A stretch of 64,000 nucleotides of DNA. Origin: a virus. Positions 37,501-63,359 of this stretch are shown here, one piece after another. Position 1 is the stretch's first letter. The number at the start of each line of letters is the position of its first letter. The stretch spans positions 1-64,000 of IMG/VR virus record IMGVR_UViG_3300032236_000300; one strand, written 5' to 3'. Both the position numbers and the translations under genes were made by a program. Under the pieces are notes generated by a model. That model saw nothing but the letters and a program-made list of their open reading frames with translations. It did not search any database and was not told the origin of the DNA.

Positions 37501-40473
37501 AAAGAGGATGTACAGCAAAGTAATCCTTACATTGGCTCGGCGGTCAAGATCATTACAGATATGTTGGCGTACCGTGGACGTATGCTCAGCCGTGCTAAAG
37601 ACACTATTCAGAAGTGGGCACAGATGCAGTTGGACGCGCCTGCACAATCCCGCTTGATGTCACGCGTTATGTTGGAAGCTACTATTCAAGGTATCGAAGT
37701 CGATCCTCTAGGCCCCGGCTACGTAAACCCATTGACTGCTGGACCTAACGATAAAGTTGCACCGCAACCGCTTGTCGACGCATGGAATAAACTTGATCCT
37801 AAGTTCCAAAACTTGTATCGTGAAGTACGTAACTACTATACCGATCTGCTCAAGGCTACTATCCGTGAAATGAAGATGCGGGTGTTGACAAGCGGCAAAA
37901 CATCGGCAGAGAAGAAAGACCTAATACGTAAGATTAACAAGCAGTTTGCTGAAGAAAACTTTAGCCGCCCATACTTCCCATTACGGAGATTTGGTGATTT
38001 CTGGTTCCAAGTTACCGCTAACGGACGTACCGAGTTCTACACATTTGAAAACCATATCGATCGCGATTTAGCGTACGACAAACGGTACGCTGAATTATCT
38101 AAAGGCAATGTGACTCAACAGGCTGCGGCTGAAAGCATGCGTGCTGGCAATACCATATCGCAGTTGTACACCGACAATAAAAATATTGGCGGCGCTCTAA
38201 AAGATGTCAATGAACTTATCGATAGTATTTCTGACACAGTGACTACAGTTCAGGGAGGCCAAGCCTTTACTACTAAGAAGTCGGCTGATGCTATCAAGAG
38301 TGAAATTAAAGGTGCTATTGACCAACTAGTCTACGTTCTTTTGCCACAGCAAAGTATGCGTAAGATGTTTATTAACCGCCGCGCTATCCAAGGTGCAAGC
38401 GGTGACATGTTGCGTGTGTTTGCGGATACATCTGTACGAGCGGCATATCAGCAGTCTCGGTTTAAGTTTGTTCAGCCATTCCTAAACAACATGAGCAACG
38501 CTCATGATTACATCCGTGCGTTTGTACAAGGAAAACGTCAGACTGAAGCACTCGACTACATCAACGAAGTTGAGAAACGCTACAAGCATATCTTTAGTAT
38601 GGAAGATAAGAGTGCGTTAGCTAGGTTTGCTGGCGGCGCTAACCAAATGATGTTCATGGTCAACTTGACTGCGCCTGCTAGTGCGTTGATGAACGTCTTG
38701 GCATTCCCAATTATGGCTGAGCGCACCATAGGCGGTAAGTACGGTATCGTTAAAGCAAATGCTGTAATGGCTAAATACTTTGGTCAGTACATGCGGACAC
38801 TACCTAAACGCACTCTTGTGCCTATGGGCAAAGGTCTAAAAGCTGAAATCTCGTGGCCTTCTATTGTGGAAGGTGGCTACCTGAAGGGTGCATCTGCCCG
38901 TGCTGCGCAGAAGTTTGCCGACGACGGCGACATTAACGTATCGCAAACCAGCGACGTGTTTGATTTTGCAGAGCGTCCATCTGAGTTATATAGCAACGGG
39001 ATGTTTAGCCGAGTCATGCAAGGCATAGCCATGCCATTCCATCAGCTTGACCGCCTTACCCGTGAAGTAACGCTGATGTCTGTATTTGATTTGGCATACG
39101 AACAGTACCTAACTGCTGACAAACGTGACGAGCGTGGCGTTATCCAACGTGATACCAAGACAGGTAACCCATTAAAGTACACAGAGGAAGAAGCATTTAA
39201 CGCGGCGATCGAAGATGCGCGTGATGCGGCGGCGGCTTCGCTTGGTGAATACCTACGCCAACTTAAAGGTCGTGCGTTCTCAGGGCCTGTCGGTGCGCTT
39301 GTGATGCAGTTCAAGCAAGTGAGCGTTACGATTTTCCGTGCTATCTATCGTGATATGTGGCTGGCGTTTGGCGCACCGTTGACAACAGCAGAACGGGACG
39401 AGTTCAAGAAGTTCTTGACCGAACAGTACAAAGGCGCCCCAAATGCTACACAACTTGTAGAACAGCAGATAAAAGAATACGAAGCCTACCAAAAAGAAAT
39501 TCACCGCGAAGCCTTCCGCAAGGTAGTCATCATCAATGCAACTGCGTTCTTAATGGCCGGTGCAGAAGGTACGCCTTTGTATTTCTTAGTATCGTTACTA
39601 CCAGCGATTGCTAGAGTATTTGCTCCAGACGGCGAAGACTGGGATGACTTTGAGACTTGGTTCTTCAATATGCTAATGAATGATTTTAGTGGAGCTGTTA
39701 GCGAACTAGCGATGCAGTCTGGCATGGACGAAGAAAGCGCGGAAGCATTAGCTAAGAAGGCCGCGCATGCTGTTGCACGCGGAATCCCTGCGGCTGTAAC
39801 TAACTGGAGTTTGACCGAACGTATTGGTATAAACCCCGGGGAGATGCTCTTCCGTAACGCACGCTACTACGCTGACGCTAAGCAAGAACTGCAAGATATG
39901 GTTATCAGTAACCTCGGCGCGTTCCCAAGTTACATGCTTGATAACGTACCTACTGCTTACCAACTTGTACAGCAAGGACACTACGAGCGTGCCTACGAAA
40001 AGCTGTTCCCTGCAATTGCCACTAAGCCAGCCGTTGCTTATCGATTTAGTGAAGAAGGTGCTAAACGTATTTCGGGCAAAACTGTCTTGCACAAAGATGA
40101 GTTCGATAAGCTAGACATTGCGGCACAGGCTGTCGGTATCCGCCCAGAAAAGCTAACTTTAGTAGAGCGTGCAAGCTCAGCGGCATCAGAGAAGATGCTT
40201 AGATTGAATAACAAAAAGTCTCAGTTGTTGGACCGCATTTGGGTAGAGCATTTGGCTAACAGTCCAGCCGAGAACATAGCACGACAAGAGTTTTACAAGT
40301 TTGCTTATAAACACCCTAACTTTATTGATGACCCAGAAAAAACTATCGAAGATAGTTTTGAGAAGAAGTACGAAGGGTTGGCAAGCGCAGGTGTGAATCT
40401 TGGCGTGGATATCCCAGAGAATCTATTGCCAGAGGTTGCGCCGATCCTGTCGGGTGCAAAGAAGTTGCGTTGA
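31519..40473 (+). CDS. Giant polyvalent ejection protein: L,D-transpeptidase plus two zincins
   Basis: A 2984-residue protein, the largest gene. Residues 1-30 carry two EFVPL-like motifs, and a third is at 555-559. Residues 150-340 are Gly/Ala-rich and helical; 480-980 are acidic, Ala/Glu-rich linkers. Residues about 1060-1270 are a YkuD-type L,D-transpeptidase (H1186/H1191 and S-F-G-C at 1213-1216). HEILHH (1472-1477) with a later NPSEFWAVN gives one zincin; HEVVHA (1800-1805) with FEFVAEAL gives another. The rest is helical, with hydrophobic stretches near 2378-2405 and 2671-2700. Multi-domain polyvalent proteins injected with DNA have this plan. It could breach peptidoglycan at entry and cleave proteins. 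Confidence 0.85.
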   Translation: MTYEFVPLSKAEPTEAKDQGEGGEFTFVPLAAAKSPIQERMTVPTSVGTSGVSMAEAEEEPTRPVPKGKSIFERGVKMEPPTVDYQKNLETMRQSGSPESVMFTPGRQLESIDQQIMRGEARRTREQEIAAKKAAELAATKEFLLKRQAEQEGYGVGSFGQDIAGATAKGIVGLGQSAAGLAQLATGWIPDDPNINPLQIGQWGKMLDKLGYDPEATSQFISGLQSPQMQLQQNEVAQAKGFFNTAAALAVNPLALLDSIVESLPGTVGAGAAGGKFVRYLAGKATQEAAERGLTGAAAQKFIAEKVKEKSTQIAAAASAAEGAQTAGSIADQARAAGKDWDEYVAPALAAGFGTAAIGVVAGKAASKLGIGDVETEIAARSAGVKGVGVGAADQSLAKVVRNELIKEGVFEEMPQSVQEQIFTNLATGRPWNEGVEEAAAQGLMAGAGMGGGHAVIARALQRTGEIVQEQTNKLAQSIVDQRQPSAEELAKSKGFLRKEGTKKEKSEDDLIADLDKYNQEQIDAEEAAPPQTEDEKLAAKEAADERAAIQTTHEFVPLQEDQTVPEPPDIFGKKEEAAPAAVQEAAPAVAEETDLQRADRLDAEAAEQETAQEARKANAREIAKTNFDAAIDQVDSLEFNGDLNAAFDSYKQNTLDTLAEKGEKDQYVSDAADREFDRLVAEHNEKQTPTATLEPVKDQETIQQIRRENPTNGVSLGDWTDPNTDNLWDGANYYAGIAQRYGGPTSLTPVTTLAEAKQAEANGKSIYAVNKPEPATVEELQTQRENARLEMIKLHTKTGNRPKTGTKKRETYDALQEKLNKLDVEIAKVAKPEAPEFNGEPAPISTDLVVITPPAAVQQVPALPPPDQASPDLQAVYDSAAAKAKKAWEVLSLADEALSQEEDPSDGSQPSPVKLKRLTDERNKAHAEWEVLEKEAENAFTALTHEPYTVEGEVRIVEETVAPQLAALPAPDVNRLEKHYGLSAGSRDFVLKVKEDIVRYANEGAEVIAEAIRDIIGKLHAGVLTAAIIFNPTNVSTAEFVTYPTATIAITEQVLADLPAGTEMMSDGAKQSYKVLYPSIKDKLQANNKILTIVDKPKGHTYVFNPDGTLLLRTKTLTGLAPGDFYKGNNNLPQNRITPAGFFTFGLRDAMRSVDEAKTAGEYDFGKVFVLDKVIGGEYSMTLMHSVWMHESDAAMRAKAIASESETDSRYSFGCINVNKQTYKFLIDNHLKQMDGSSVFVVPDNPANLASLLSGKPENRDGLERNVFTPPTKTVNRTIDSATTTPNLASAAAADRRRNMFRSIVANALPDEVGPDLTEAIAHNQRGINKLDALYKDGKITPEQYAEAMLKINESIRERADRSRSNKSKQRGFGRVVTALEDAKKAGRISPETADFAIWFLIQNPALADDLAIKIALPKTKREKEATEGTAGNYNPIAKIVRLVTRKAPTPFEAETETERYAATKEDTAVHEILHHLERMLPVQVRRLIRNEWSRQIRDKLKEAAKTKNTALQFYLNNVIKANTEQDMVAWTLASKAIQDGDVPYEMYALFNPSEFWAVNASNLLSDRYYAGTKFQKAKQWMREFIETLKSIFGLSSDDPIIQGLNAVLRGDGTFVSKDMLSEGKPDQTFRQIVQKGLHPSVVEAINNNDISGALRAVAKNTSGIYSVLAARLAELNLPTTIGFNRERELVRQHIDSKSSQQQVQLFTYVRRAYPELFEKYFKNYDRSESLELVYAGLKELYKPQYNTSALNMQLALVRDEFDKAMPGLTHSGLYMPSSDAISLRTSGQFGLTNRVFLHEVVHAATEFVLRDTKGLSQRQREAVTQLYVMYNYAKSQLNIEAYGFKNVFEFVAEALTNADFQKKLRTVEYEPAQGSVYNSLLRFAMKMFGADNVAGATIIQANEIFSAFRPAGAVNAPLRFGPPIKGKKGRYKKGPITSKWRTAEDAAVRLADALKGAMSSIPEASSLASAVRRAGKFKLRNLEFPFLGLRMLKEDVQQSNPYIGSAVKIITDMLAYRGRMLSRAKDTIQKWAQMQLDAPAQSRLMSRVMLEATIQGIEVDPLGPGYVNPLTAGPNDKVAPQPLVDAWNKLDPKFQNLYREVRNYYTDLLKATIREMKMRVLTSGKTSAEKKDLIRKINKQFAEENFSRPYFPLRRFGDFWFQVTANGRTEFYTFENHIDRDLAYDKRYAELSKGNVTQQAAAESMRAGNTISQLYTDNKNIGGALKDVNELIDSISDTVTTVQGGQAFTTKKSADAIKSEIKGAIDQLVYVLLPQQSMRKMFINRRAIQGASGDMLRVFADTSVRAAYQQSRFKFVQPFLNNMSNAHDYIRAFVQGKRQTEALDYINEVEKRYKHIFSMEDKSALARFAGGANQMMFMVNLTAPASALMNVLAFPIMAERTIGGKYGIVKANAVMAKYFGQYMRTLPKRTLVPMGKGLKAEISWPSIVEGGYLKGASARAAQKFADDGDINVSQTSDVFDFAERPSELYSNGMFSRVMQGIAMPFHQLDRLTREVTLMSVFDLAYEQYLTADKRDERGVIQRDTKTGNPLKYTEEEAFNAAIEDARDAAAASLGEYLRQLKGRAFSGPVGALVMQFKQVSVTIFRAIYRDMWLAFGAPLTTAERDEFKKFLTEQYKGAPNATQLVEQQIKEYEAYQKEIHREAFRKVVIINATAFLMAGAEGTPLYFLVSLLPAIARVFAPDGEDWDDFETWFFNMLMNDFSGAVSELAMQSGMDEESAEALAKKAAHAVARGIPAAVTNWSLTERIGINPGEMLFRNARYYADAKQELQDMVISNLGAFPSYMLDNVPTAYQLVQQGHYERAYEKLFPAIATKPAVAYRFSEEGAKRISGKTVLHKDEFDKLDIAAQAVGIRPEKLTLVERASSAASEKMLRLNNKKSQLLDRIWVEHLANSPAENIARQEFYKFAYKHPNFIDDPEKTIEDSFEKKYEGLASAGVNLGVDIPENLLPEVAPILSGAKKLR

Positions 40474-43519: not shown

Positions 43520-43762
43520 CTACTGAACAAAACCAACCTTTGAAAGCATCTCGTTTATTTTGGTCTCGTGTACCTTGCGTGGAATCCACTCGCCTGTAAA
43601 CCATTTGTAGACGGTCATGCGGCTGACTCCAAAGTACTCAGCGACTTCACTAACGGAATATTCTTTCGTGATACAGAATCGCCCCAGCTTTACGCCGGGG
43701 CTTTTGATATCTGCTTCTTGGTTAGCACGGACGATTCGAGTTGCGTAACCTCTGTTATCCAT
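43520..43762 (-). CDS. Helix-turn-helix DNA-binding protein
   Basis: An 80-residue protein. Residues 34-60, with YSVSEVAEYFGVSRMTVYKW, form a textbook helix-turn-helix of the Xis/MerR-like or excisionase type; basic residues follow (IPRKVHETK). It may regulate phage promoters or aid recombination. It lies between the ssDNA-binding candidate and the primase gene and is directly adjacent to the former. Confidence 0.82.
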   Translation of the reverse strand: MDNRGYATRIVRANQEADIKSPGVKLGRFCITKEYSVSEVAEYFGVSRMTVYKWFTGEWIPRKVHETKINEMLSKVGFVQ

Positions 43763-51441: not shown

Positions 51442-51683
51442 CCTATCTTCCCCGCTTTTAATATGCCAAACTCAGAACGCTTCCAAAGAAATGAAATGGT
51501 TGGCACAGCACCAGCACTAAACAAGTCTGATGCTGTAAAAGTAGCATTAGTATGTCTTGGGTACCCCGGGCCAACGTATCTCTTAGTGTCTCGGTAGTGT
51601 GGTACATAAGTTATGTCATTCAGTTTAAATGAGGTGTACCTGTACAGTTCAGCTTTGTCTTCGTCTTTTGCTTTTGTAGTCAT
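51438..51683 (-). CDS. Small protein of unknown function (81 aa)
   Basis: A beta-rich small protein (YRYTSFKLNDITYVPHYRDT, then VPTISFLWKRSEFGIL). It overlaps both neighbours by 4 bases. No domain recognised. Confidence 0.65.
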   Translation of the reverse strand: MTTKAKDEDKAELYRYTSFKLNDITYVPHYRDTKRYVGPGYPRHTNATFTASDLFSAGAVPTISFLWKRSEFGILKAGKIG

Positions 51684-53964: not shown

Positions 53965-53973
53965 AGTATAGCA
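53965..53973 (-). promoter_or_regulatory. Extended -10 promoter for the VRR-NUC gene
   Basis: On the minus strand TGC-TATACT (53973-53965), an extended -10. The -35 is weak (TTGTGT near 53993-53988). It starts right after a terminator, so it re-initiates transcription of the genes from 53933 on. Confidence 0.55.
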
Positions 53974-53976
53974 CAT

Positions 53977-54003
53977 AAAAAAGCCCGACACAATAGGTCG
54001 GGC
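53977..54003 (-). terminator. Intrinsic terminator, leftward
   Basis: On the minus strand GCCCGAC, a 7-base loop and GTCGGGC (arms at 53997-54003 and 53983-53989) followed by TTTTTT (53982-53977). It ends the transcript of the gene at 54064. Confidence 0.88.
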
Positions 54004-54011
54004 GAAAAAAA

Positions 54012-54040
54012 GGACATACTTCCAAATTGAAAGTATGTCC
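54012..54040. repeat. 27-bp palindrome family, copy 1 (also hairpin plus T-run)
   Basis: GGACATACTT (54012-54021) and AAGTATGTCC (54031-54040) are perfect inverted arms around 9 bases. It is the most symmetrical copy (11 of 12 dyad positions in the 27-bp unit 54013-54039). On the minus strand seven T follow, so it can also act as a terminator in tandem with the next hairpin. Confidence 0.85.
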
Positions 54041-54063
54041 CTAGTAGTTAAGGTTTAACTATA

Positions 54064-54957
54064 TTAGCAAGTAGTTTGTATTGCACCTGCCGTCATGTAG
54101 ATGTGCGGTATCTTCTCATCTTCTATCTTTACGCCCATACCCTCGATCGCTTGGTTGTTCTCCATGATCTTGAGGATCGCCAACTTCTCTTGGTACTCTA
54201 CAGGCAAATCGTAAGTATTAGATGTCACCATCACCACCTCTGCGATTGTCAAGTCCACCACCGTCATAACCCCACTAGGTAGAAGTTTAACTAGTAGACC
54301 AGTTCGGTTCTCCCACGCTCTGAACACACTATCGACGATTCTGTATGTCGCTAGATGATCCCGCCATTTAACATCAAGCATCATGTTAGGCGGTAGTGGT
54401 TGCGGTCCGTTGTCTTGCACATCTGCCATGTACGATAGTACGGAAGCCGCAAGTACAGTTACATTCACACACGCTGTCAGTTGACTGTTTGCATTCTGTC
54501 GTAGGCTATGGATACGATAACTCGCGTCGGTAATCATGGTCTTGGCTACCTCGTCAGGCGGGAATTCCTTGAACGCATCTAGTGCAGTCTTCAATGCAAT
54601 CTTGTAATGCTTAGTCCGTTTTCGGTTTCGCATACCGCGTTGCTGTTGAATCCTAGGCGAGTCGAGTTGATAGATGTTGATGTATTTGCCGTCTACATAG
54701 TCTTGTGTAATTCCGATCTTGCCGATCTTCTCTTCGTTGTTATACACAACTACCTCGCTCACTACACGGGCGTCACTCCTACTACTACCATCGCTATTAC
54801 GATGGAAAGATACTCCGTGCGATTCGTATGCAATCTTTGGTAACTTGATAGAGAGATCACACAAAAGAATATGCAAGTCAGGGTGAATGCCATACTCCTC
54901 CCGCCCTTTCGGGTCGTACTTGTATGGTAGGGCTGTGAAGTCAATAGGTTCGCTCAT
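54064..54957 (-). CDS. Conserved protein of unknown function (297 aa)
   Basis: An alpha/beta protein without known motif. Visible pieces are DLHILLCDLSIKLPKIAYES, a basic helix QQQRGMRNRKRTKHYKIALK, and a C-terminus IEGMGVKIEDEKIPHIYMTA. AAAGGAA precedes the start. It is the last gene before a double terminator. Its neighbourhood (MoxR/VWA block upstream, nuclease downstream) does not fix a role. Confidence 0.7.
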   Translation of the reverse strand: MSEPIDFTALPYKYDPKGREEYGIHPDLHILLCDLSIKLPKIAYESHGVSFHRNSDGSSRSDARVVSEVVVYNNEEKIGKIGITQDYVDGKYINIYQLDSPRIQQQRGMRNRKRTKHYKIALKTALDAFKEFPPDEVAKTMITDASYRIHSLRQNANSQLTACVNVTVLAASVLSYMADVQDNGPQPLPPNMMLDVKWRDHLATYRIVDSVFRAWENRTGLLVKLLPSGVMTVVDLTIAEVVMVTSNTYDLPVEYQEKLAILKIMENNQAIEGMGVKIEDEKIPHIYMTAGAIQTTC

Positions 54958-54966
54958 AAATTCCTT

Positions 54967-55200
54967 TCAGTTAAGTGTCTCGTTGTTGCTTTCGCCTGCA
55001 ATGTGTAGGTCGTATGTCGTAGTTACGGCTTCGACTAACTCTTGTCTCGATAAACAAGTAATGATCGCTGATCGCGCTAATATGTTTAGCATGATGTTGA
55101 GTACCTCGTCAGGCTGAAGTTCTGCTTGACGCATAAGATTAACTACATCTGTTGCTACCTTGTGAAGTTTGTCACTTGGTTTTGCTTTCTCTATTCTCAT
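54967..55200 (-). CDS. Small helical protein (77 aa)
   Basis: The start at 55200 is fixed by AAGGAGATAAAC; a longer frame to 55242 has none. Helical, with KVATDVVNLMRQAELQPDEV and LARSAIITCLSRQELVEAVT. Between two larger unknown genes; function unknown. Confidence 0.65.
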   Translation of the reverse strand: MRIEKAKPSDKLHKVATDVVNLMRQAELQPDEVLNIMLNILARSAIITCLSRQELVEAVTTTYDLHIAGESNNETLN

Positions 55201-55210
55201 GTTTATCTCC

Positions 55211-56080
55211 TTACCATTCAAAGCGTTTAAGAATATCGTCAACCTTGGCTTTCACATTCTCGCGAATGTAGTCGCTCTCTTTCAGAGTATCAAGATCCGT
55301 GTTCGTTAGCGCTGCGCTAAGTTCGCGTCGTGCTTGCTCTAACTTGGGATCGTTAGTAATGTTGAGTCGGCTCAACAAGTTAACCAACTCGTGTGCGTTG
55401 GTGAGTATCGTGCCGTGAAACACTTTGCGTTTGCCTTCGTCATCACTGGCTAGGCGTTCGCTCATGTGAGTCAGGCATTCGTACAGTCGTTGCCACACAT
55501 CACGCATCGCGTGGTTGAGTCGCTCGTTGAAAGCAGTCTCATACTGGGCTACCAGTTCTGCCTTCGCTTGCTCACCAATCTCAATGCGGAAGTCACCAGC
55601 CGTTGGAATCGGCGTTAGCGTATACGAGAAGCGAAACTTCTTAGCGATCTCGTCTGGCTCAGGGTACTCGTCACGATTGAACAAGTCACCTAGTTGGAAT
55701 GCACCTGCTGATATCAGCGTAGGGTAGATGCCAACGAACACATCAACCAAGCGTTCGAACTCTGCCTTCTTCTCATCAAGTGTGCGTTTGTATCCTCCGT
55801 TGAATAAGTTTTCCATAGTGACGATGCGAGGACCTGAGTCAGACCAAGGGATAGTCTGTTTGGTATTCCACAACCGAGCACCTGCCGCGAATCGGATCAC
55901 GGCTTCATGGTGTGGGTTGCCTGCAAGCAAATGCTTGTGGTAGTTGCCCGCCTTAACCTTAGTGTTCTTCGCTGAGTCCACCTCTTCAGATACACGCTTG
56001 TCCAACTTGCGTGCAGTCCAACATGAGATGTTCAACTCCACCATCATTGCGCTTGTTGCGATACTAATTGATTCAGACAT
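55211..56080 (-). CDS. DUF3150-like protein of the MoxR/VWA block
   Basis: A 289-residue helical protein starting at 56080 (AGGAGAGCAG). It has ELNISCWTARKLDKRVSEEV, RFAAGARLWNTKQTIPWSDSG and a long helical middle (KKAEFERLVDVFVGIYPTLI, MRDVWQRLYECLTHMSERLA). This layout recalls DUF3150 proteins that accompany MoxR ATPases and VWA proteins in phages and plasmids; the assignment is from memory of the family. It may be the target or adaptor of that chaperone pair. Confidence 0.6.
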   Translation of the reverse strand: MSESISIATSAMMVELNISCWTARKLDKRVSEEVDSAKNTKVKAGNYHKHLLAGNPHHEAVIRFAAGARLWNTKQTIPWSDSGPRIVTMENLFNGGYKRTLDEKKAEFERLVDVFVGIYPTLISAGAFQLGDLFNRDEYPEPDEIAKKFRFSYTLTPIPTAGDFRIEIGEQAKAELVAQYETAFNERLNHAMRDVWQRLYECLTHMSERLASDDEGKRKVFHGTILTNAHELVNLLSRLNITNDPKLEQARRELSAALTNTDLDTLKESDYIRENVKAKVDDILKRFEW

Positions 56081-56270
56081 TCTGCTCTCCTGTAAGTTTG
56101 TCCTGTTCCACCTTGCTTGCGAGATACACAATCACTTGAGACATTGATGGCTTGAAGCCAATCTCCCTCTCTAGCCTTGTTTGCATTATTCGCAAATACT
56201 CATACGCTACTGCGTTGACGCTAAGCGTTCGCCTGTCAGCCATAGTTTTTAAATAATCTGCGTCCGTCAT
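56073..56270 (-). CDS. Ribbon-helix-helix-like regulator (65 aa)
   Basis: Starts at 56270 (GGAG five bases upstream). RRTLSVNAVAYEYLRIMQTR and PSMSQVIVYLASKVEQ resemble the strand-helix-helix layout of Arc/CopG-type repressors. It lies between the VWA and DUF3150-like genes with short overlaps, so it may regulate this block or bind the repeated palindromes. Confidence 0.6.
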   Translation of the reverse strand: MTDADYLKTMADRRTLSVNAVAYEYLRIMQTRLEREIGFKPSMSQVIVYLASKVEQDKLTGEQNV

Positions 56271-56272
56271 AC

Positions 56273-57532
56273 TCACTCCACTAAAACAGATTGACCAACA
56301 CTAGGAACAAAGCCCTTGTTCCCTACCACACACCACAAGACTGGCGCACTCGTTGATGACCAGTCGCCACAGTTCCCTCCATAGAAATATCCGTCGGTAA
56401 GCATCACGGTGCATTGCGGTGTGATGCGTTTCTCTTGCATGTACGCGGGTACACAAGCAGGCTCAGTACCGCCACCACCTTTGGGTTGTGTAAGTGATGC
56501 GATGTTTTGCAACTCGCCACCTGAGTAAGTCTCATGCCCTGCGACATGGCTATCCCAATACATCAACTCGATCTTCTCGGGTGCTACCTCGTCGCAGATT
56601 GATTTCATCTCTCCGAGAAAGCGTCCTAGTTCGGGACCGCCAATAGATCCTGATGTGTCTATCCCGATAGCAATACACTCGGCGCGGTGCGTCTCTGCGC
56701 TTGGCATGATGATCCCGCTTGCAAGATAGCGACGATTAGGTCTGCGCCATGTGGATTGATCGCCACCGCGTGTAGCAGTCTTGATGAACTCACGCAACGC
56801 TTCGCGCCAATCAACCTTGGGGTGAAGGATCTCTTCGATACCGCGTGGCACTTTGCCTTTCATCTTTCCCGCAAGCATTGAACCTTCGCGTAATGCTGAG
56901 TCGATCTCGCGCTCTAGTTCTTCGGTTTCTTCTTGCGTTAGTTCGCGTGCGCCTTGCCAGTCGTGCTCGTCAAGTTCATCGGGACAACCTGACGGCTTGT
57001 CATTTTGTCCACCGCCAGAGTGACCGATCCCGCCCTCACCATCGCCTTCGCATTCGCCGTCCTCGTCCTTGCCACCCTTGCCTTCCTCAATGAGTAGGTC
57101 GTAGACTTGCTTGGTATCCATACCGCGATACTTCTCGTCAATCAAACCAATGACCTTACCAGTCTGGGGGTCGCGTGGCATAGCCACCTCGTTCTCGCTC
57201 GGGTCGGTGTCTTTGATCTGCAAGTTGATTACATAGTCCATAGCCCAGTTCGCTACCTGCTTATCGGGCAAGTGTTTCCATACCGTCATATGACGATAGG
57301 CTTTGTGCATAGCCTCGTGCACCACCAAGAAAGCAAGTTGCTTTTCGGTCAGCATATCTACGAATGCACGCCCATACTCCACATCACGCCCGTTGGTACG
57401 CGCGGACTTACACTTCTCCGATACAGTAACCTTGCCCACCATGAATACTCCTGAGAATAAACAGAAGTCAGGGCTCTGCATCAAGCGTACATGCGCACGC
57501 TCTATCCGTTGTTCAGCCGTTAGTTTCATCAT
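56273..57532 (-). CDS. VWA-domain protein with N-terminal metallopeptidase motif
   Basis: A 419-residue protein of the DUF2201 type. Residues 1-140 form a zincin-like domain with FLVVHEAMHKAY (H72, E73, H76). Residues 150-195 are an acidic Gly-rich linker. Residues 280-419 are a VWA domain with the metal-binding DTSGSIG (292-298) and later TDGYF. Such proteins work with MoxR ATPases as chaperone pairs that remodel or mature targets. The ATPase gene is 0.9 kb upstream in the same block. AAAGGGAG supports the start. Confidence 0.88.
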   Translation of the reverse strand: MMKLTAEQRIERAHVRLMQSPDFCLFSGVFMVGKVTVSEKCKSARTNGRDVEYGRAFVDMLTEKQLAFLVVHEAMHKAYRHMTVWKHLPDKQVANWAMDYVINLQIKDTDPSENEVAMPRDPQTGKVIGLIDEKYRGMDTKQVYDLLIEEGKGGKDEDGECEGDGEGGIGHSGGGQNDKPSGCPDELDEHDWQGARELTQEETEELEREIDSALREGSMLAGKMKGKVPRGIEEILHPKVDWREALREFIKTATRGGDQSTWRRPNRRYLASGIIMPSAETHRAECIAIGIDTSGSIGGPELGRFLGEMKSICDEVAPEKIELMYWDSHVAGHETYSGGELQNIASLTQPKGGGGTEPACVPAYMQEKRITPQCTVMLTDGYFYGGNCGDWSSTSAPVLWCVVGNKGFVPSVGQSVLVE

Positions 57533-57692
57533 CTTCTCCCTTTAAAGTCATTACCCATTTACCAATTTGTTCTTCCGTATAGAACGATAGAATCCAATCC
57601 GCCAACACATGAACTGGATCTTCGAGTATGCGGTCGTATAGCATGTCCAATGCTTCCTCACCAAAGTGATGTTTAATCTCTGCGGGTGTCAT
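57513..57692 (-). CDS. Micro-protein (59 aa) before the VWA gene
   Basis: Starts at 57692 after GGAGGAAGAAG. The product MTPAEIKHHFGEEALDMLYD ... WVMTLKGEDDETNG is helical and acidic. It overlaps the VWA start by 20 bases and the preceding micro-gene by 20 bases. Clear ribosome site and fit support it. Function unknown. Confidence 0.72.
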   Translation of the reverse strand: MTPAEIKHHFGEEALDMLYDRILEDPVHVLADWILSFYTEEQIGKWVMTLKGEDDETNG

Positions 57693-57837
57693 CTTCTTCC
57701 TCCTCCATCAGTTGTCGATAGATTGCTCTTGCTTGTTTAGCAATAACTCTTGCGGTGTCTACGCCACTAGCCCACGACACTTTGCCGTTAGCACGACTGG
57801 CAAGTAGCCACGCCATTACAAAATCTTCTTCACTCAT
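57673..57837 (-). CDS. Micro-protein (54 aa), helical
   Basis: MSEEDFVMAWLLASRANGKV ... ARVIAKQARAIYRQLMEEEE. Starts at 57837, overlapping the previous gene's end, and has GGAGG a little upstream inside it. The protein type (short, helical, acidic end) is like its neighbours. Function unknown. Confidence 0.7.
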   Translation of the reverse strand: MSEEDFVMAWLLASRANGKVSWASGVDTARVIAKQARAIYRQLMEEEEDDTRRD

Positions 57838-58066
57838 TGCCTTCCTCCGCATGCTGTAAGTACCAGTCGTACCACATACTGATTGCTTCTACGGTTTCGG
57901 CAATGAACGCGTGTTTGCTTTGCTCATCACGCCATTGCACACCCGCGTCGCCTATCACGCTAGTGAGAACACACATAAGAAAAGATCCGTTCTGCCCATG
58001 CAGTAGAGAACCAATCTCGTTCTTCAACTTTCGTATCTCTGCTAACTCTTGCTTGCTTAGATTCAT
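57830..58066 (-). CDS. Small protein of unknown function (78 aa)
   Basis: Helical N-terminus (LSKQELAEIRKLKNEIGSLL) and a Trp/Tyr-rich C-terminus (TVEAISMWYDWYLQHAEEG). GGAGGAG gives a strong start at 58066. Overlaps the next gene by 8 bases. Confidence 0.68.
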   Translation of the reverse strand: MNLSKQELAEIRKLKNEIGSLLHGQNGSFLMCVLTSVIGDAGVQWRDEQSKHAFIAETVEAISMWYDWYLQHAEEGNE

Positions 58067-58067
58067 A

Positions 58068-58238
58068 TCACTCCTCCTCGTTGTAGTTAAGTGCCTCTGT
58101 TAAAACATTACCAATGTACAAACCCCCAAACAAGATCGACGCCTTGTTCAGATAGCCGTTATCTGAGAATCCAAACACGATAAACAAAACACCAATGATT
58201 GTGAACACTACAAGGTGTACTGGGCTTGCTATTTTCAT
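58068..58238 (-). CDS. Small two-TM membrane protein (56 aa)
   Basis: Two hydrophobic helices (HLVVFTIIGVLFIVFGF and KASILFGGLYIGNVL) and an acidic end (NYNEEE). The stop ends two bases before the next start. The upstream gene overlaps as ATGA. An early-expressed inner-membrane protein; could be a superinfection exclusion or host takeover factor, which is speculation. Confidence 0.72.
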   Translation of the reverse strand: MKIASPVHLVVFTIIGVLFIVFGFSDNGYLNKASILFGGLYIGNVLTEALNYNEEE

Positions 58239-58378
58239 ATCTCCTCCTCTTCGGGCACATAGCCTTCTCTTGGTGTCTCATACATAGTGATATATGCGTT
58301 ACCGTTTTCATACCGCACTTCCCAGTCGGTGTGACCAAACTCAAGTCTGCAATACTCATCTAACAAATCTGAATTCAT
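58235..58378 (-). CDS. Micro-protein (47 aa), acidic
   Basis: Starts at 58378 after AAGGGGGTGGT. The product MNSDLLDEYCRLEFGHTDWE ... YITMYETPREGYVPEEEEI is a small alpha/beta piece with an acidic tail. ATGA overlap with the membrane protein gene. Function unknown. Confidence 0.7.
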   Translation of the reverse strand: MNSDLLDEYCRLEFGHTDWEVRYENGNAYITMYETPREGYVPEEEEI

Positions 58379-58387
58379 ACCACCCCC

Positions 58388-59449
58388 TTAGAACAAGTAC
58401 TGGTTCTCGCGCATCCAAGTAATGAATGCACCGCTAGTCATCAAGATCTGTTTCTTCTCAGGGTGCTTGCTCGTGGAGAGACAAAACACGCTTTGGAGTT
58501 CCTTGGGGGTACGCTTCAAGTACTCGAACCACTTGCCAATGTTGGCGCGGTCGATCCTTTGCATAGCACCATAAGCCATGATGTTCAAAGCCGCAGGTGA
58601 TGTTGGTAACTTGCAACCTTTTGGATCGTCGATAACCTCTTGCCATGATGGGAGACTGTCTGCCACCTCTACATAAGCAAGCATGTCTCGTGCGCCTGCT
58701 TCACCGATTGAACCAGTCAATGCTGATATCAAAGCATTACGAGTAATCAGATGACGCTTCATCAAGATGTTAGATGCGCGATGCAATGAGCGTGGAGATA
58801 CAAAAGATTTCTGTGGAGTCTTTGGGTTGAAGATGTATGGGTTCTCGGCTTGCCCCGCATCTCTGTAAGATGCCAATGCGTGTGGGTATGCTTTCACCCA
58901 TGCCAATGCTTCAGCCGCGATTCCATTGTTAGCACCCCATTCAATCCATTCATCAGATGTTGGCTTGCGTACTTGCATAATAGTTATCCTGTTAAGTGAG
59001 TGGGCTTTGAGCATGTCGCCCACCCCATCAGTTGAGTTGTTACCTGCTGTTATCACGATAGAGTCGGTGTGTAGTCGTGATCCACTAATGCGTCTCTCGT
59101 TGAGTAGTGGGTGTAGCATGTTCTGCACAGCCATTGATGAAGGCTTAGTGAACTCGTCGATGAACACAACGCAAGGATCTCCCAAGTGAAAACCCCAATG
59201 CTCGTTGGGATAGAGAGCAGTAGTTTTGGTTTCATGATTGGGCATTGGGATACCAATGTCACCCAACTCTGTGTTCGGTGTATCGATATACACACCACGA
59301 TACCCAGTCTTTGCTACGATGCGTTCAAACATAGCGGTCTTACCAACCCCTGGCTCGCCTACTAAATGTATTGCATTCTGATTTCCGAAAGCAAGGATCG
59401 CGTCCTCTGCTTCAGCCAAAGATACCTCGGTTGTCATACGAACTTCCAT
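58388..59449 (-). CDS. MoxR-type AAA+ ATPase
   Basis: A 353-residue AAA+ protein. Walker A VGEPGVGKT (30-38), Walker B VVFIDEFTKP (94-103), sensor 1 VITAGNNSTDGVGD and an arginine in LNERRISG fit the MoxR family. MoxR ATPases act with VWA proteins to activate or remodel partner complexes; a VWA gene lies downstream. GGAG supports the start at 59449. A 27-bp palindrome (59482-59508) sits just upstream. Confidence 0.9.
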   Translation of the reverse strand: MEVRMTTEVSLAEAEDAILAFGNQNAIHLVGEPGVGKTAMFERIVAKTGYRGVYIDTPNTELGDIGIPMPNHETKTTALYPNEHWGFHLGDPCVVFIDEFTKPSSMAVQNMLHPLLNERRISGSRLHTDSIVITAGNNSTDGVGDMLKAHSLNRITIMQVRKPTSDEWIEWGANNGIAAEALAWVKAYPHALASYRDAGQAENPYIFNPKTPQKSFVSPRSLHRASNILMKRHLITRNALISALTGSIGEAGARDMLAYVEVADSLPSWQEVIDDPKGCKLPTSPAALNIMAYGAMQRIDRANIGKWFEYLKRTPKELQSVFCLSTSKHPEKKQILMTSGAFITWMRENQYLF

Positions 59450-59481
59450 AATCTACTCCAAATTTAATTAAACAAAACAAA

Positions 59482-59508
59482 GACAAACTTACGAATTGAA
59501 AGCATGTC
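59482..59508. repeat. 27-bp palindrome family, copy 2
   Basis: GACAAACTT (59482-59490), 9 bases, AAGCATGTC (59500-59508). It fills the gap between the gene ending at 59509 and the MoxR start. On the minus strand TTTGTTTTGTTT follows, so weak termination is possible. Confidence 0.8.
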
Positions 59509-60516
59509 TTACAAACACGCTTCAGTTGAGTACTCGCGGTACTTCTTATTGCTGTCGTGTTGTATCGTGCCGATTGGCGCTTCCTCTAGTGTTAACACCT
59601 CCTTCTGATATTGAAACTTCAGTAACTCGTTAAAGAAATAGATGAGACGCTTGGTGTCCATCTTCCATACATACTCGCGGTCTTGGTCGGGCAAGATGCG
59701 TTGGTCGTATTCTGTTGATGCGCTGAAAGAAAGAAACTCAACCAATGGCAACATGGCTTCCATGCGCTTACCCTCGTCTGCTATCTCCATTGCGTTGTTC
59801 ACCTGTTCAAAGAACTCATTGCGTATGTACGCCTGTGGTTTAGTGTGGTAGTTCATTTGTGTGGTATCAGAAGTGAGAATGTATTTCGCACTTCTTGGTT
59901 GATAGTGGTTGGGCTTGTAGTCACCACGGCACAAGTCCATACCGATTCCCTTCCCGCCTAGCGTGAGTGAGGTAACCATCTTGGCGTAGTCGGTGAATAC
60001 AGTAAAGCGTGCTTTGAGTGCTTTGAACTTTTCCTTGTCAACGACATGGCGCGTCTCGTTGGTCATGTCCTCGGTGTCTACTGTCCCGCATGGGAAAACC
60101 TTCAGTTTGCTACCTATGCGATAGGCGTGCCCCATACCATCGAAGTAATACGCTTTGCCGTTGCGCTTGGCAAACTTATCTACGCCGAACAACTCTTGCA
60201 AGATTTGAACAGTTGATATCGTGTTCCAGTCACCCACGCTGAAGGTGAACGAACCGTGTTGGTGATAGATAGCAATGTCGGTTTCGTAGTACTTAACAAT
60301 CACATCTCCCATTTCAAAGCGGATCTGTGTGCGGTCGTATCTGCGATTGAGTCCTAGCGGTTTCTTGCCCTCGCTTGCACCTTTGCTGAATGGTTTCACG
60401 GCATTGTGATGGATCAATGCTTCTTGGTATGTTGTTAGGCGGGGTATGTTGTCTGCCATGAATGTGTACGCTGAGTTGTTACCGCGTGCCCACTTGTCGT
60501 TTGGTTTTACTGCCAT
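59509..60516 (-). CDS. Conserved protein of unknown function (335 aa)
   Basis: The start at 60516 is fixed by GGAGGAAATCAA; upstream codons in the frame overlap another gene. The sequence begins AVKPNDKWARGNNSAYTFMA, then alpha/beta segments (EMGDVIVKYYETDIAIYHQH, AYYFDGMGHAYRIGSKLKVF) and a helical end. Its form is a compact intracellular protein; no known motif. It is flanked by palindrome copies on both sides and precedes the MoxR gene. Confidence 0.7.
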   Translation of the reverse strand: MAVKPNDKWARGNNSAYTFMADNIPRLTTYQEALIHHNAVKPFSKGASEGKKPLGLNRRYDRTQIRFEMGDVIVKYYETDIAIYHQHGSFTFSVGDWNTISTVQILQELFGVDKFAKRNGKAYYFDGMGHAYRIGSKLKVFPCGTVDTEDMTNETRHVVDKEKFKALKARFTVFTDYAKMVTSLTLGGKGIGMDLCRGDYKPNHYQPRSAKYILTSDTTQMNYHTKPQAYIRNEFFEQVNNAMEIADEGKRMEAMLPLVEFLSFSASTEYDQRILPDQDREYVWKMDTKRLIYFFNELLKFQYQKEVLTLEEAPIGTIQHDSNKKYREYSTEACL

Positions 60517-60543
60517 TTGATTTCCTCCAATAGGTTTTGTTTC

Positions 60544-60570
60544 GACAAACTTACAGTCTGTCAGTTTGTC
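60544..60570. repeat. 27-bp palindrome family, copy 3
   Basis: GACAAACTTACA (60544-60555), GTC, TGTCAGTTTGTC (60559-60570): 11 of 12 dyad positions pair. It overlaps the 3' end of the gene at 60551 and lies 28 bases before the start at 60516. Confidence 0.8.
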
Positions 60571-60844
60571 CTGTGATCTTGGTGATCGGGTCGGTGTTGT
60601 CACGATTGAACTGGTCGAAGTCCTCCAACTCCATAGCGTGTTGCTTCTCTGCATACTCAGATACCAAAGCAAAGTCTGCGGTGTCAGTCTCGTTACCAAT
60701 TACCTCGTCCACCCAACATGCACTAGCGTCGAACGCCACTTGCATGGTCTCGCACGCTTCCGTGATCGCATCAACCTTCGCGGTTGCTTCTTCGCTATCA
60801 GGATTAGCGATATCCTCGAATTCAAATACAACTAATACTTTCAT
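60551..60844 (-). CDS. Small acidic protein (97 aa)
   Basis: Opens with VLVVFEFEDIANPDSEEATA and has a ferredoxin-like or ACT-like strand-helix pattern (AKVDAITEACETMQVAFDAS). Strongly acidic. AAAGGGGAG gives the start. Acidic small early proteins sometimes mimic DNA or bind host factors, but there is no direct evidence here. Confidence 0.65.
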   Translation of the reverse strand: MKVLVVFEFEDIANPDSEEATAKVDAITEACETMQVAFDASACWVDEVIGNETDTADFALVSEYAEKQHAMELEDFDQFNRDNTDPITKITGQTDRL

Positions 60845-61029
60845 ACATCTCCCCTTTGTTGTGCCATTTCAAATTGCCTAATCATCTCGTCGCGTGCTTC
60901 CTTGTTCTCGATCAGGTGCATGAACAGTTTGCGCACCATGAACTCTTCATGTTTGGTTTTAAGATACAGACCAGTTGCAAGGGACGCCCATGCAAACAGA
61001 ACAATCTCGCTAATACTTATTTCAATCAT
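60841..61029 (-). CDS. Small membrane-anchored protein (62 aa)
   Basis: Hydrophobic N-terminal helix (ISEIVLFAWASLATGLYL) then a charged helix (ENKEARDEMIRQFEMAQQRG). GGAGG before the start; overlaps at both ends. Likely an early inner-membrane protein of unknown role. Confidence 0.68.
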   Translation of the reverse strand: MIEISISEIVLFAWASLATGLYLKTKHEEFMVRKLFMHLIENKEARDEMIRQFEMAQQRGDV

Positions 61030-61189
61030 TGGTTCCTCCAGTTTTAAAGTTTTCTATCTCTTTCCGTAGCGGTTCGTCGCTTTGCGTCTTGAGTATACGC
61101 ACCCAGTCCACACGCGACAAGAACCACCTAAACAATGGGACATTGCAGTCTTGGCAAAGCAACTCTGCGTTGTCTCCCTTCTTAGTCAT
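61022..61189 (-). CDS. Small CxxC protein (55 aa)
   Basis: Starts at 61189 (GGAGGACTTTG upstream). Contains LLCQDCNVPLFRWFLSRVDW with one CxxC, perhaps half of a zinc site completed by dimerisation. A longer frame to 61210 lacks a ribosome site. Function unknown. Confidence 0.65.
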   Translation of the reverse strand: MTKKGDNAELLCQDCNVPLFRWFLSRVDWVRILKTQSDEPLRKEIENFKTGGTND

Positions 61190-61262
61190 CAAAGTCCTCC
61201 ACCCAAACAATTACAAACACATATAAAAACACCACAAAGCAGACAGTCTGCGCCCATGTCAT
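61182..61262 (-). CDS. Micro-protein (26 aa), single membrane helix
   Basis: Starts at 61262 after AAGGAAGTCAC and overlaps both neighbours. The product MTWAQTVCFVVFLYVFVIVW ends in VEDFDD: one membrane helix and an acidic end. Small for a gene, but its overlaps and ribosome site are as good as those of its neighbours. Confidence 0.55.
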   Translation of the reverse strand: MTWAQTVCFVVFLYVFVIVWVEDFDD

Positions 61263-61432
61263 GTGACTTCCTTTTCTTGTATCCAATAGTGATAGGCGTT
61301 CTCCCGACCGCCTTTTGCGTCTTGCTCTTTTAGTGCGCGTATGGCACTCTCTGCACTTGTCTTGTTGTAAAAGATAGCATCAAGACAACTTTCTTCTCCG
61401 TCGCTCTCCCAAACCAAATAAACCATAGTCAT
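61259..61432 (-). CDS. Small protein (57 aa)
   Basis: Starts at 61432 as ATGA with the previous gene. The product MTMVYLVWESDGEESCLDAI ... IRALKEQDAKGG ... YHYWIQEKEVT has a strand-helix-strand form. Fits exactly between neighbours with 4-base overlaps at both ends. Confidence 0.7.
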   Translation of the reverse strand: MTMVYLVWESDGEESCLDAIFYNKTSAESAIRALKEQDAKGGRENAYHYWIQEKEVT

Positions 61433-61650
61433 AACTCACCCCGCGTTGATTTCTGATTTGTATTTTTCAGCGCAGTCGGTGCAGACTGCGAGGTTACGAA
61501 TTGATAGCAACCCTTTCCATACTCTTGCACCACAGTCCACTTGGCGCGATCTTTCAGGGCTTGCTCGTCACCACATGGCTTGCATATCAAGTGACCATAA
61601 GACGCACGCTTGCGACCTACACCATTAGTCAGGCATTTAATACACCGCAT
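61429..61650 (-). CDS. Zinc-ribbon-like small protein (73 aa)
   Basis: The start at 61650 is given by AAAGGAATCAAT. Two knuckles, CIKC (3-6) and CKPC (23-26), should bind one zinc; the rest is basic and polar. It may bind nucleic acid or protein early in infection. Second gene of the leftward transcript. Confidence 0.72.
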   Translation of the reverse strand: MRCIKCLTNGVGRKRASYGHLICKPCGDEQALKDRAKWTVVQEYGKGCYQFVTSQSAPTALKNTNQKSTRGEL

Positions 61651-61663
61651 ATTGATTCCTTTC

Positions 61664-61906
61664 TTAGACGCTTGGCGTAGACCAAGCATAAACCTTGACG
61701 CCGTTGGCTGGGTTGCCCGTTGCCCAATTCAATTTGATACCACGATAGCCAGACTCATAGTCCTCACGCACGCCGTATGCCATGCCGTCGATCAACCGCA
61801 GTTCTTCGCGGTAGAGTTCCCGCCAGTTGCGGTCGAAAGCAATGATTACTGGATTGCGTGCTTGGGTTGCACTTGATGACGATGAATTAGCAGAACGAAT
61901 TTGCAT
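61664..61906 (-). CDS. First leftward early gene (80 aa)
   Basis: Starts at 61906 with GGAGGTTCT. After a Ser-rich N-terminus (QIRSANSSSSSATQARNP) comes a compact part with VIIAFDRNWRELYREELRLI and GIKLNWATGNPANGVKVYAW. No known domain. It is the first gene behind the consensus leftward promoter and a structured leader, so it should be made earliest. Confidence 0.7.
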   Translation of the reverse strand: MQIRSANSSSSSATQARNPVIIAFDRNWRELYREELRLIDGMAYGVREDYESGYRGIKLNWATGNPANGVKVYAWSTPSV

Positions 61907-61921
61907 AGAACCTCCATAAAA

Positions 61922-61948
61922 GACAAACTGACAAGTTGTAAGAATGTC
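61922..61948. repeat. 27-bp palindrome family, copy 4
   Basis: GACAAACTGACA (61922-61933), AGT, TGTAAGAATGTC (61937-61948). It lies in the leader of the leftward early transcript, 16 bases before the first gene. Confidence 0.8.
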
Positions 61949-61958
61949 GCTGAACTGA

Positions 61959-62001
61959 GGGCGACCCGTTCGCCCATAGCAGTTCCCCTGCCGTGTGGCA
62001 G
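61959..62001 (-). promoter_or_regulatory. Structured leader of the leftward early mRNA
   Basis: Two hairpins: GGGCGA/TCGCCC (61959-61975) and CTGCC/GGCAG (61988-62001). The second is at the predicted 5' end of the RNA (about 62001). With palindrome copy 4 the leader can form three stem-loops before the first ribosome site. Confidence 0.6.
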
Positions 62002-62007
62002 AGCCAC

Positions 62008-62036
62008 ATTATAACAGAATAACTATACAATGTCAA
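62008..62036 (-). promoter_or_regulatory. Perfect sigma70 promoter, leftward early
   Basis: On the minus strand TTGACA (62036-62031), a 17-base spacer and TATAAT (62013-62008), a full consensus at optimal spacing. It should be one of the strongest host-dependent promoters of the phage and drives the leftward block. Confidence 0.92.
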
Positions 62037-62090
62037 GTGTTTGTACTGTGAAAGGGAGGTTTGTCCCTTCATCTGCGTTTGTTTTTTAAT

Positions 62091-62126
62091 CCTATAGTTC
62101 CTATTGTACCTAATGTACCTAATGTT
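62091..62126. repeat. Four tandem 9-bp repeats
   Basis: CCTATAGTT, CCTATTGTA, CCTAATGTA and CCTAATGTT follow one another with no gap (consensus CCTAWTGTW). The array lies 55 bases upstream of the leftward -35. Confidence 0.85.
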
Positions 62127-62210
62127 CTGTAACCCTTTTTTTAAAGTAGAACATTCGAAATGTGCTGTAAGTTGTTGATTTATATAGATGTTGTGTTGTA
62201 TTGTTGTTGT

Positions 62211-62234
62211 ATTGTTCTATTGTTCTATTGTTCT
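62211..62234. repeat. Iteron array, three ATTGTTCT copies
   Basis: Three perfect tandem copies of ATTGTTCT, the reverse complement of AGAACAAT. They form a perfect 24-bp inverted repeat with the array at 62333-62356, 98 bases away. Confidence 0.92.
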
Positions 62235-62332
62235 TTAAAAATATATATAGGGGGAAAATTGAATATACAATAGTATTACACTTGCTGGGGAGTGCGTTCG
62301 AACTGCAAATTTTCAAAACTGCTTTTTTCGAC

Positions 62333-62443
62333 AGAACAATAGAACAATAGAACAATAGGCAAAAAAGCCTTATATATCAACGACTTGTATTGTTCCGTTG
62401 TTTTTTGGCACCACAGAACAATAGAACAAAAGGGCAGAACAAT
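62333..62443. repeat. Iteron array, five AGAACAAT copies
   Basis: Three tandem perfect copies (62333-62356) and two single ones (62415-62422, 62436-62443), plus one-mismatch copies at 62423-62430 and, reversed, 62389-62396. Confidence 0.9.
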
Positions 62444-62455
62444 GCGCGAACAAAG

Positions 62456-62519
62456 GGCTACCCCGTTGCAATGACCGATCCCTAGCCCCGACAAACTTCC
62501 AAAGTGGAATTATGTCTCC
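62456..62519 (+). repeat. Early leader repeat, copy A (contains 27-bp palindrome copy 5)
   Basis: A 64-base block starting GGCTACC, CGTTGCAATGACCG and ending ATGTCTCC; about 50 of 64 positions equal copy B at 63296 without gaps. Palindrome copy 5 is inside: GACAAACTTCCA (62490-62501), AAG, TGGAATTATGTC (62505-62516). Confidence 0.88.
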
Positions 62520-62588
62520 CTATTAAACATTTTAAAACCAGTGGGTTTTGTAAGTTTCCCGTAAGCATAGGGGTTTAGTATCAGGATA

Positions 62589-62610
62589 CCAAGAAAGAGG
62601 GCTTTCTTGG
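62589..62610 (+). promoter_or_regulatory. Hairpin before the first rightward gene
   Basis: CCAAGAAAG-AGGG-CTTTCTTGG, nine perfect pairs, 26 bases before the start at 62637. No T-run follows at once, so a stability or translational role is more likely than termination. Confidence 0.6.
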
Positions 62611-62636
62611 ATTAACTTTCCTACTGGAGAAATCAA

Positions 62637-63254
62637 ATGGAAAAAACTATCGTAGCGCAAGCCATTCCAAATCAAGCATCAAAGTCAGGTGCAATGTTCG
62701 CAAAGTCAGAAATTGACGCGAAAGAATCCTTGGAGATGTTTGCTCGTGATCTTGGAACCGAGCCGACCTACACCGACTGGATCGCCAAGCGCACCGACTG
62801 GGTGAACGGATATATAACAGCAAAACCGCAGACCAAGGGCAACGCATCGGATTTGGCATTCAAACGCTTTGCAGATCGACTGGTAGCAGATTATGGTTTC
62901 ACGATACCAAAAGCACAAACGCAGGCATCGATCAAGAAAGCCACTGAGAGGGCTAAGAAAGCGGAAGAACTGGAACGCAAATATGAATCCATACCAACGC
63001 ACCAAATCACCGAGAATCTGCGCCAAGCGTATGAACTGCAAGCCAAGAATCCCACCAAGAAATTAGCAACGCTAAAAGAACTGGAGACGATTCTAAAAGC
63101 GCGAACCAAAGCGGAAGAAAGCGGAGTTAAAGAAGAACTTAAATCTGCGCGATCTGCCTTGATCGAACTGGCTAAGAAATGCACCGATCTAGAATTACTG
63201 GAGACCGCGACCAGTATTCTCGATGAGTCGAACTATGAAGTGACGATTCAGTAA
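62637..63254 (+). CDS. Early protein A, paralogue of the gene at 63480
   Basis: A 205-residue helical, charged protein. Residues 39-95 (LGTEPTYTDWIAKRTDWVNG ... AFKRFADRLVADYGFTIPKA) match the next gene's domain. The rest is a long Lys/Glu coiled-coil region with THQITENLRQAYELQAKNPT. No enzyme motif. GGAG before the start. It is followed by a strong terminator and is a highly placed early gene; a role in host takeover or replication start is inferred from position only. Confidence 0.75.
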   Translation: MEKTIVAQAIPNQASKSGAMFAKSEIDAKESLEMFARDLGTEPTYTDWIAKRTDWVNGYITAKPQTKGNASDLAFKRFADRLVADYGFTIPKAQTQASIKKATERAKKAEELERKYESIPTHQITENLRQAYELQAKNPTKKLATLKELETILKARTKAEESGVKEELKSARSALIELAKKCTDLELLETATSILDESNYEVTIQ

Positions 63255-63268
63255 GATCGAAACAAAAC

Positions 63269-63295
63269 GGGAGGGGAAACCCTCCCAATTTTTTT
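63269..63295 (+). terminator. Intrinsic terminator with GAAA loop
   Basis: GGGAGGG-GAAA-CCCTCCC (63269-63286), AA, then seven T. It ends the transcript of early gene A, so early gene B needs its own start or antitermination. Confidence 0.92.
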
Positions 63296-63359
63296 GGCTA
63301 CCGCGTTGCAATGACCGTTCCCTACCCCAGACATGCTTACTGGGTGACAACATGTCTCC
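63296..63359 (+). repeat. Early leader repeat, copy B (contains 27-bp palindrome copy 6)
   Basis: Second copy of the 64-base leader. Palindrome copy 6: GACATGCTTACT (63330-63341), GGG, TGACAACATGTC (63345-63356). A looser similarity (GGTTTGTAAG...GTAAG...AGCATA) continues for about 50 bases in both leaders. Confidence 0.88.

Follow-up and report, generated by a model that had tools for sequence, protein, structure and literature searches.

Stoperators, which are known from temperate actinobacteriophages and maintain lysogeny there, offer the closest parallel to the element described here, a 27-bp palindrome repeated along the early region of a virus of the IMG/VR collection (record IMGVR_UViG_3300032236_000300). 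We analysed positions 1 to 64,000 of this record, hereafter the window, which represents most of its 65,213 bases. In cluster A mycobacteriophages (L5, Bxb1), stoperators are present in many copies per genome, mostly off promoters and some of them within genes, and their consensus varies by lineage (PMC6550527). The window resembles these phages in having eight copies, with about 8-11 per record in the group, distributed across the transcribed region, none of them on the early promoter. However, stoperators are asymmetric and oriented with transcription, whereas the present element is a palindrome with a symmetric consensus, and they number 20-30 per genome against 8-11 here, in one early region only. 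Stoperators moreover serve the immunity repressor of temperate phages, whereas we found no arrays in bacterial genomes and no family match to a tyrosine integrase or ParA in 14 records (some are fragments; serine integrases and ParB were not searched), so that lysogeny is not indicated.

Other repeats are less similar. The 22-bp repeats of the virulent phages T1, Stevie and TLS are mostly intergenic; they have been likened to stoperators by their authors, their role being unknown (PMC4319613, PMC11447400). These repeats are asymmetric and oriented one way, whereas the element here is palindromic and also found within a gene. The ESAS of cluster K mycobacteriophages are multi-copy imperfect inverted repeats near start codons (PMC12699233). 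In ESAS, a spacer of variable length separates two 17-nt repeats in the vicinity of SAS motifs, whereas the present element has a fixed 27-bp frame with a 5-bp centre, and nothing like a SAS motif was noticed beside it (the SAS motif itself was not searched). Operators of ribbon-helix-helix proteins of the MetJ/CopG type carry boxes in exact 8-bp phase. The element shares this phasing, but a ribbon-helix-helix protein is not universal among the phages that bear the sites. A parS/ParB partition site would differ in the matter of ParA, for which the 14 records gave no match. The first-pass annotation of this DNA, made from the letters alone, knew no named phage element of this form, and none turned up in the literature that we searched. 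The most apt description of the element is a DNA operator array of unusual layout, stoperator-like but palindromic.

Eight palindromes in the window

The first-pass annotation had listed six 27-mers, at 54013, 59482, 60544, 61922, 62490 and 63330, and all six were found at these coordinates. With a symmetrised profile they scored 27-40 bits, whereas 60 dinucleotide shuffles of the entire window gave top scores of 7.9 bits on average and 15.1 at most, leaving a gap of more than 10 bits between palindromes and shuffled sequence. When each of the six was left out of the profile in turn, it was regained at rank 2-8 among about 64,000 positions. Scanning the window with the profile gave eight copies, two of them new:

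54013-54039: site 1, GACATACTTCCAAATTGAAAGTATGTC, closing the leftward early operon at its 3' end, with a T-run leftward; 39.7 bits
56076-56102: site 2, additional copy, GACATTCTGCTCTCCTGTAAGTTTGTC, over the ribosome site and start codon of a DUF3150-like gene (55211-56080); 18.6 bits
56983-57009: site 3, additional copy, GACAACCTGACGGCTTGTCATTTTGTC, within the VWA gene (56273-57532); 25.0 bits
59482-59508: site 4, GACAAACTTACGAATTGAAAGCATGTC, preceding the MoxR-type ATPase gene (58388-59449); 35.9 bits
60544-60570: site 5, GACAAACTTACAGTCTGTCAGTTTGTC, preceding a gene for a 336-amino acid (aa) protein (59509-60519); 37.1 bits
61922-61948: site 6, GACAAACTGACAAGTTGTAAGAATGTC, the first after the leftward early promoter, at about +52 to +78 of the predicted transcript; 36.1 bits
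62490-62516: site 7, GACAAACTTCCAAAGTGGAATTATGTC, 5' of a rightward 205-aa gene; 34.7 bits
63330-63356: site 8, GACATGCTTACTGGGTGACAACATGTC, 5' of a second, paralogous rightward gene; 27.2 bits

The original six were thus real, but the full set no longer conforms to the idea that every copy stands before a gene in an intergenic gap, since site 3 is intragenic and site 2 spans a start codon. Pairing within the six copies, first put at 8-11 of 12 positions, came out close to this on recounting (12, 9, 12, 10, 10 and 8 of 13 position pairs). Had ordinary coding sequence yielded matches of the same quality, this would have spoken against the element; the sole copy lying entirely within a gene proved to be conserved in 35 homologous genes.

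Sites 7 and 8 have in common a longer upstream block, GGCTACCSCGTTGCAATGACCGWTCCCTASCCC (62449-62516 and 63297-63356), which suggests a duplicated cassette ahead of the two 205-aa paralogues.

Conservation of the array and coherent change of its spelling

Relatives were picked independently of the motif, by a protein search with the MoxR-type ATPase that gave 42 loci. Many of these loci hold 5-9 copies, and pattern scans of viral contigs yielded many more. The consensus of 407 distinct copies, each within two mismatches of the pattern, is GACA-NNN-TGAC-N5-GTCA-NNN-TGTC, i.e. GACANNNTGACNNNNNGTCANNNTGTC. Its length is fixed at 27 bp with a 5-bp centre, and its GAC/GTC boxes have an exact 8-bp spacing. 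The shared form beginning with GACAWRCTT, which the first-pass annotation had derived from its six genuine copies, therefore gives way to GACANNNTGACNNNNNGTCANNNTGTC as the form common to relatives; the copies of the window are a drifted subset of it, in which position 9 is often T instead of G. Exact matches to GACANNNTGACNNNNNGTCANNNTGTC numbered 318 in 2.01 Mb of relatives' loci, some of which had been selected by the pattern, and none was present in the reversed sequence. Larger or whole records each carry the 8-11 copies mentioned above, while the reversed control was devoid of arrays. In the maps that we drew, the copies are limited to the early region, between the 205-aa genes and the VRR-NUC gene. 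The arms are thus kept in relatives, as multi-copy arrays with conserved boxes, and the existence and conservation of the array are firm.

The phage belongs to a large, widespread uncultured group. In bacterial and archaeal genomes (257 Gb), the pattern matched 94 times against roughly 60 expected by estimate, which is near chance, and mostly as single matches. These near-chance single matches indicate that the element belongs to phages, and it was not seen in prophages. A host or prophage origin was rejected: 71 of the 80 loci checked were single-copy, four Limnohabitans matches were one conserved coding sequence, and no array was present. Single-copy pattern matches in helicase genes and in clusters 315 and 326 were likewise set aside, as they look like chance or coding conservation.

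The spelling of the palindrome shifts coherently between lineages. In four phages (L023, L025, L027 and L028) the sites read GACANNNCTAGN5CTAGNNNTGTC and occupy homologous places: about 510 bp into the VWA gene, in the gap between the 297-aa and VRR-NUC genes, and before a 205-aa gene. In L032 and L038, seven copies retain the 27-bp frame but have CCG...CGG as inner box, and further lineages have multi-copy palindromes of their own, of the TCGACA, CTAACA, TAAC or CTAGG types. The cultured Planktothrix cyanophage Pag-Yong1 (L302, OL906435.1) also contains a multi-copy palindrome, CCGGTTCAGNCTGAACC, at 5537-29687, mainly in early intergenic gaps. Since every copy in a genome changes together, a single trans-acting reader is indicated.

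Selection acts on the DNA

If the palindromes worked as hairpins, pairing should be maintained by compensatory changes, as in nut- or put-like RNA elements. No such maintenance was found. Among the 407 copies, the free positions pair as often as their column frequencies predict (positions 5/23, 0.35 against 0.37 expected; positions 6/22, 0.28 against 0.29). At positions 9/19, uncompensated combinations prevail within genomes (G.A 9 and T.C 3, against T.A 5, the last in one clade). The copy in the VWA gene lies in a single codon phase in 35 of 36 rows (35 distinct homologues), the remaining row being a site at the gene start. Within this copy Asp is almost always encoded by GAC and Ser by TCA, and the neighbouring wobble bases are fixed, in what is otherwise a variable Gly/Ser-rich linker. 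Selection on the DNA as such is the best explanation for this constraint on codons and wobble bases. Together, the lack of covariation, the uncompensated inner changes and the synonymous constraint in the VWA copy show that the palindromes are DNA sites and not RNA hairpins. The preference of the first-pass annotation for a DNA operator over an RNA hairpin is borne out by the first two of these.

Layout relative to promoters and terminators

The following signals frame the leftward operon:

62008-62036, minus strand: predicted early promoter of sigma-70 consensus type, TTGACA-N17-TATAAT with a TG extension (12/12 matches), which would drive the leftward operon and is overlapped by no site
53983-54003, minus strand: second intrinsic terminator hairpin, just past site 1, kept in close relatives
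53965-53993, minus strand: promoter-like TTGTGT-N17-TATACT of the next operon (VRR-NUC, PolA); the same arrangement occurs in relatives, with TTGACA-N17-TATACT in L013

The sequence at 62036-62008 is the strongest promoter match of the region, and site 6 begins about 52 bp past its predicted start. Homologous near-consensus promoters are present in most site-rich contigs, and the first site lies at a clade-constant distance downstream of the predicted transcription start: it begins at +51 to +54 in the main clades, and at about +30 to +37 or +64 to +68 in others. The other operator classes show a similar arrangement of promoter and site (about +27 to +85). Successive sites are separated by a median of 1047 bp, and the coefficient of variation of their spacing was 0.49 against 0.81 for random placement, in related contigs that do not constitute an independent sample.

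At its far end the array stops at the copy after the 297-aa gene (site 1 in the window), and the next operon (VRR-NUC, PolA) is free of copies. A terminator scan of the minus strand found 54042-54010, at site 1. In relatives, a T-run follows the copy behind the 297-aa gene in 93% of 27 homologous gaps, against 8% of 395 copies elsewhere; pairing at the free positions is also far more frequent in it than in other copies. Site 1 therefore doubles as a terminator, whereas for site 4, which the first-pass annotation had suspected of the same, no such conserved tail was seen. The combination of stem and T-run that defines an intrinsic terminator thus fits the operon-end copy only and not the element as a class. 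The location of the array downstream of the early promoter, its even spacing of about 1 kb, the coherent re-spelling and the two additional copies had not been foreseen by that annotation.

Two inverted arrays, each of three 8-bp GAACAATA repeats, lie at 62210-62233 and 62334-62357, around an AT-rich stretch of the divergent control region. A similar array is also present in the close relatives L018, L008, L098 and L086, and these repeats may represent an origin or a further control site.

A probable block to elongation and its candidate binder

We consider it probable that the eight palindromes are the sites of one phage DNA-binding protein, forming a stoperator-like array that blocks elongation in the early operon. 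RNA polymerase starting at the consensus promoter would reach the first site after transcribing about 52 bp, and then meet another roughly every kilobase, down to site 1, which is also the terminator. As the binder accumulated it would fill the sites and block or slow the elongating polymerase, turning the early operon off; the divergent 205-aa genes would be shut off similarly. A block to elongation fits better than control of initiation because the sites lie within the transcribed operon, none is on the promoter, no promoter signal stands beside them and one is intragenic. Early shut-off during lytic growth would be the simplest use of the array. More tentatively, control of the early operon in a whole family of apparently virulent phages may take place solely downstream of the promoter, by road-blocks that are evenly spaced, that drift in spelling as a set between lineages and of which one is fused to the terminator.

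Three proteins bear on the identity of the binder:

43520-43762, minus strand: 80-aa helix-turn-helix protein, in the replication operon; best candidate binder
56073-56276, minus strand: 67-aa CopG-like ribbon-helix-helix protein; weighed as binder and judged unlikely
62637-63254, plus strand: 205-aa all-helical protein, one member of a paralogous pair in which both genes have a site in front

Among the three binders proposed by the first-pass annotation, the helix-turn-helix protein at 43520 now leads, being apparently the only universal one: an HTH_3-like match to it was obtained in 14 of 14 records. A second search found the protein in 15 of 22 records, most of the misses being short fragments. 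Where the outer boxes read GACA, the recognition helix of the protein scarcely varies (usually VSRMTIYKWF, one position being M, V or L); lineages that lack such boxes have Q, A or T at this position instead. The third proposed protein, a helix-turn-helix-DUF3310 protein at 51680, is not supported as binder, since it did not turn up when the early and replication regions of three site-rich records (G001, G016 and G034) were read. A second consensus promoter, TTGACACTGTCAACAAATAGAGTATAAT, is found on the minus strand at 45285-45258, 5' of the operon that holds the gene at 43520. Its -35 box sits in a short palindrome, TTGACACTGTCAA, and some relatives' early promoters have TTGACATTGTCAA at the same place.

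Several observations weigh against this interpretation. The even spacing may partly reflect a tolerance of sites mainly in gaps between genes. The helix-turn-helix matches fell below the Pfam cut-off in 12 of the 14 records, although homology to the window protein was clear where tested. The helix VSRMTIYKWF hardly varies across the inner-box types TGAC, TTNC, CTAG and CCG; being so constant, it could account for the outer GACA boxes but leaves the inner boxes unexplained. Finally, the 205-aa, 336-aa, 297-aa and 80-aa Zn-ribbon early proteins are also present in the site-bearing near-complete records examined, and are possible alternative binders. For the 205-aa protein a known DNA-binding fold was not recognised, its AlphaFold model being all-helical, with PDB matches at E = 3 or worse. 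No known fold or family could be reliably assigned by profile searches to the 336-aa, 297-aa or Zn-ribbon protein. The two 205-aa paralogues (62637-63254, and from 63481 to past the end of the window) adjoin the terminase genes, with a site about 120 bp upstream of each, and two copies are also found in G001, G016 and G034.

The sites could instead be conventional operators, each at the promoter of the next gene, where a repressor or activator controls initiation. Many of them do end 15-22 bp 5' of a start codon, and one lies upstream of each 205-aa gene. This nevertheless seems unlikely: no -10 element was enriched at any offset beside 131 oriented copies, the clear early promoter is free of site overlap, the VWA gene has a conserved copy in mid-gene, and the interval from site to start codon can accommodate only a ribosome site. 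The same want of a -10 pattern led us to reject the sites as promoters, and the idea of the inner TGAC as a -35 box failed as well.

We regard it as quite improbable that the array has no role in transcription and serves to condense, loop, anchor or partition the genome in the manner of parS. Even spacing and an intragenic copy under synonymous constraint are compatible with such a function, but the sites end at the operon terminator, the distance from the early promoter to the first of them is fixed, and ParA was missing from the 14 records.

Little chance can be given to the CopG-like protein at 56073 as the binder, occupying the 8-bp boxes as tandem dimers in the manner of MetJ. The phasing of the boxes, a ribbon-helix-helix-like model (mean predicted local distance difference test score 89.5), a weak CopG match and the position of the gene inside the array would suit it. 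However, the protein was not found in four site-rich records (65.6, 52.2, 51.8 and 42.4 kb), several of them near-complete, which rules it out as universal binder, and the residues of its DNA-contact strand are much alike in TGAC and some CTAG lineages.

Least credible, and largely refuted, is an action as RNA hairpins in the transcript (antitermination, translational control or processing): the sites are transcribed, many lie directly 5' of a ribosome site and the operon-end copy is a genuine terminator-like hairpin, but the free positions do not covary, uncompensated inner changes dominate within genomes, one copy stands in the middle of the VWA gene, and an Rfam search of the element found no family reaching its gathering score.

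If the palindromes are indeed road-blocks to the early operon, they would be a palindromic counterpart of stoperators in an uncultured group in which no integrase was found, and such arrays would also serve lytic early-gene shut-off. It would also be relevant to the intergenic repeats of T1-like phages, which lack an explanation. The coherent changes of the copies within genomes would provide a natural series for the co-change of a protein and the specificity of its set of sites.

Other genes of the window

Besides the MoxR-type ATPase, the window encodes a VWA (DUF2201) protein, PolA, a SNF2-type helicase and a DUF927 protein. A 2984-aa polyvalent protein (31519-40473) contains an LPD39 domain and a weak L,D-transpeptidase (YkuD) match.

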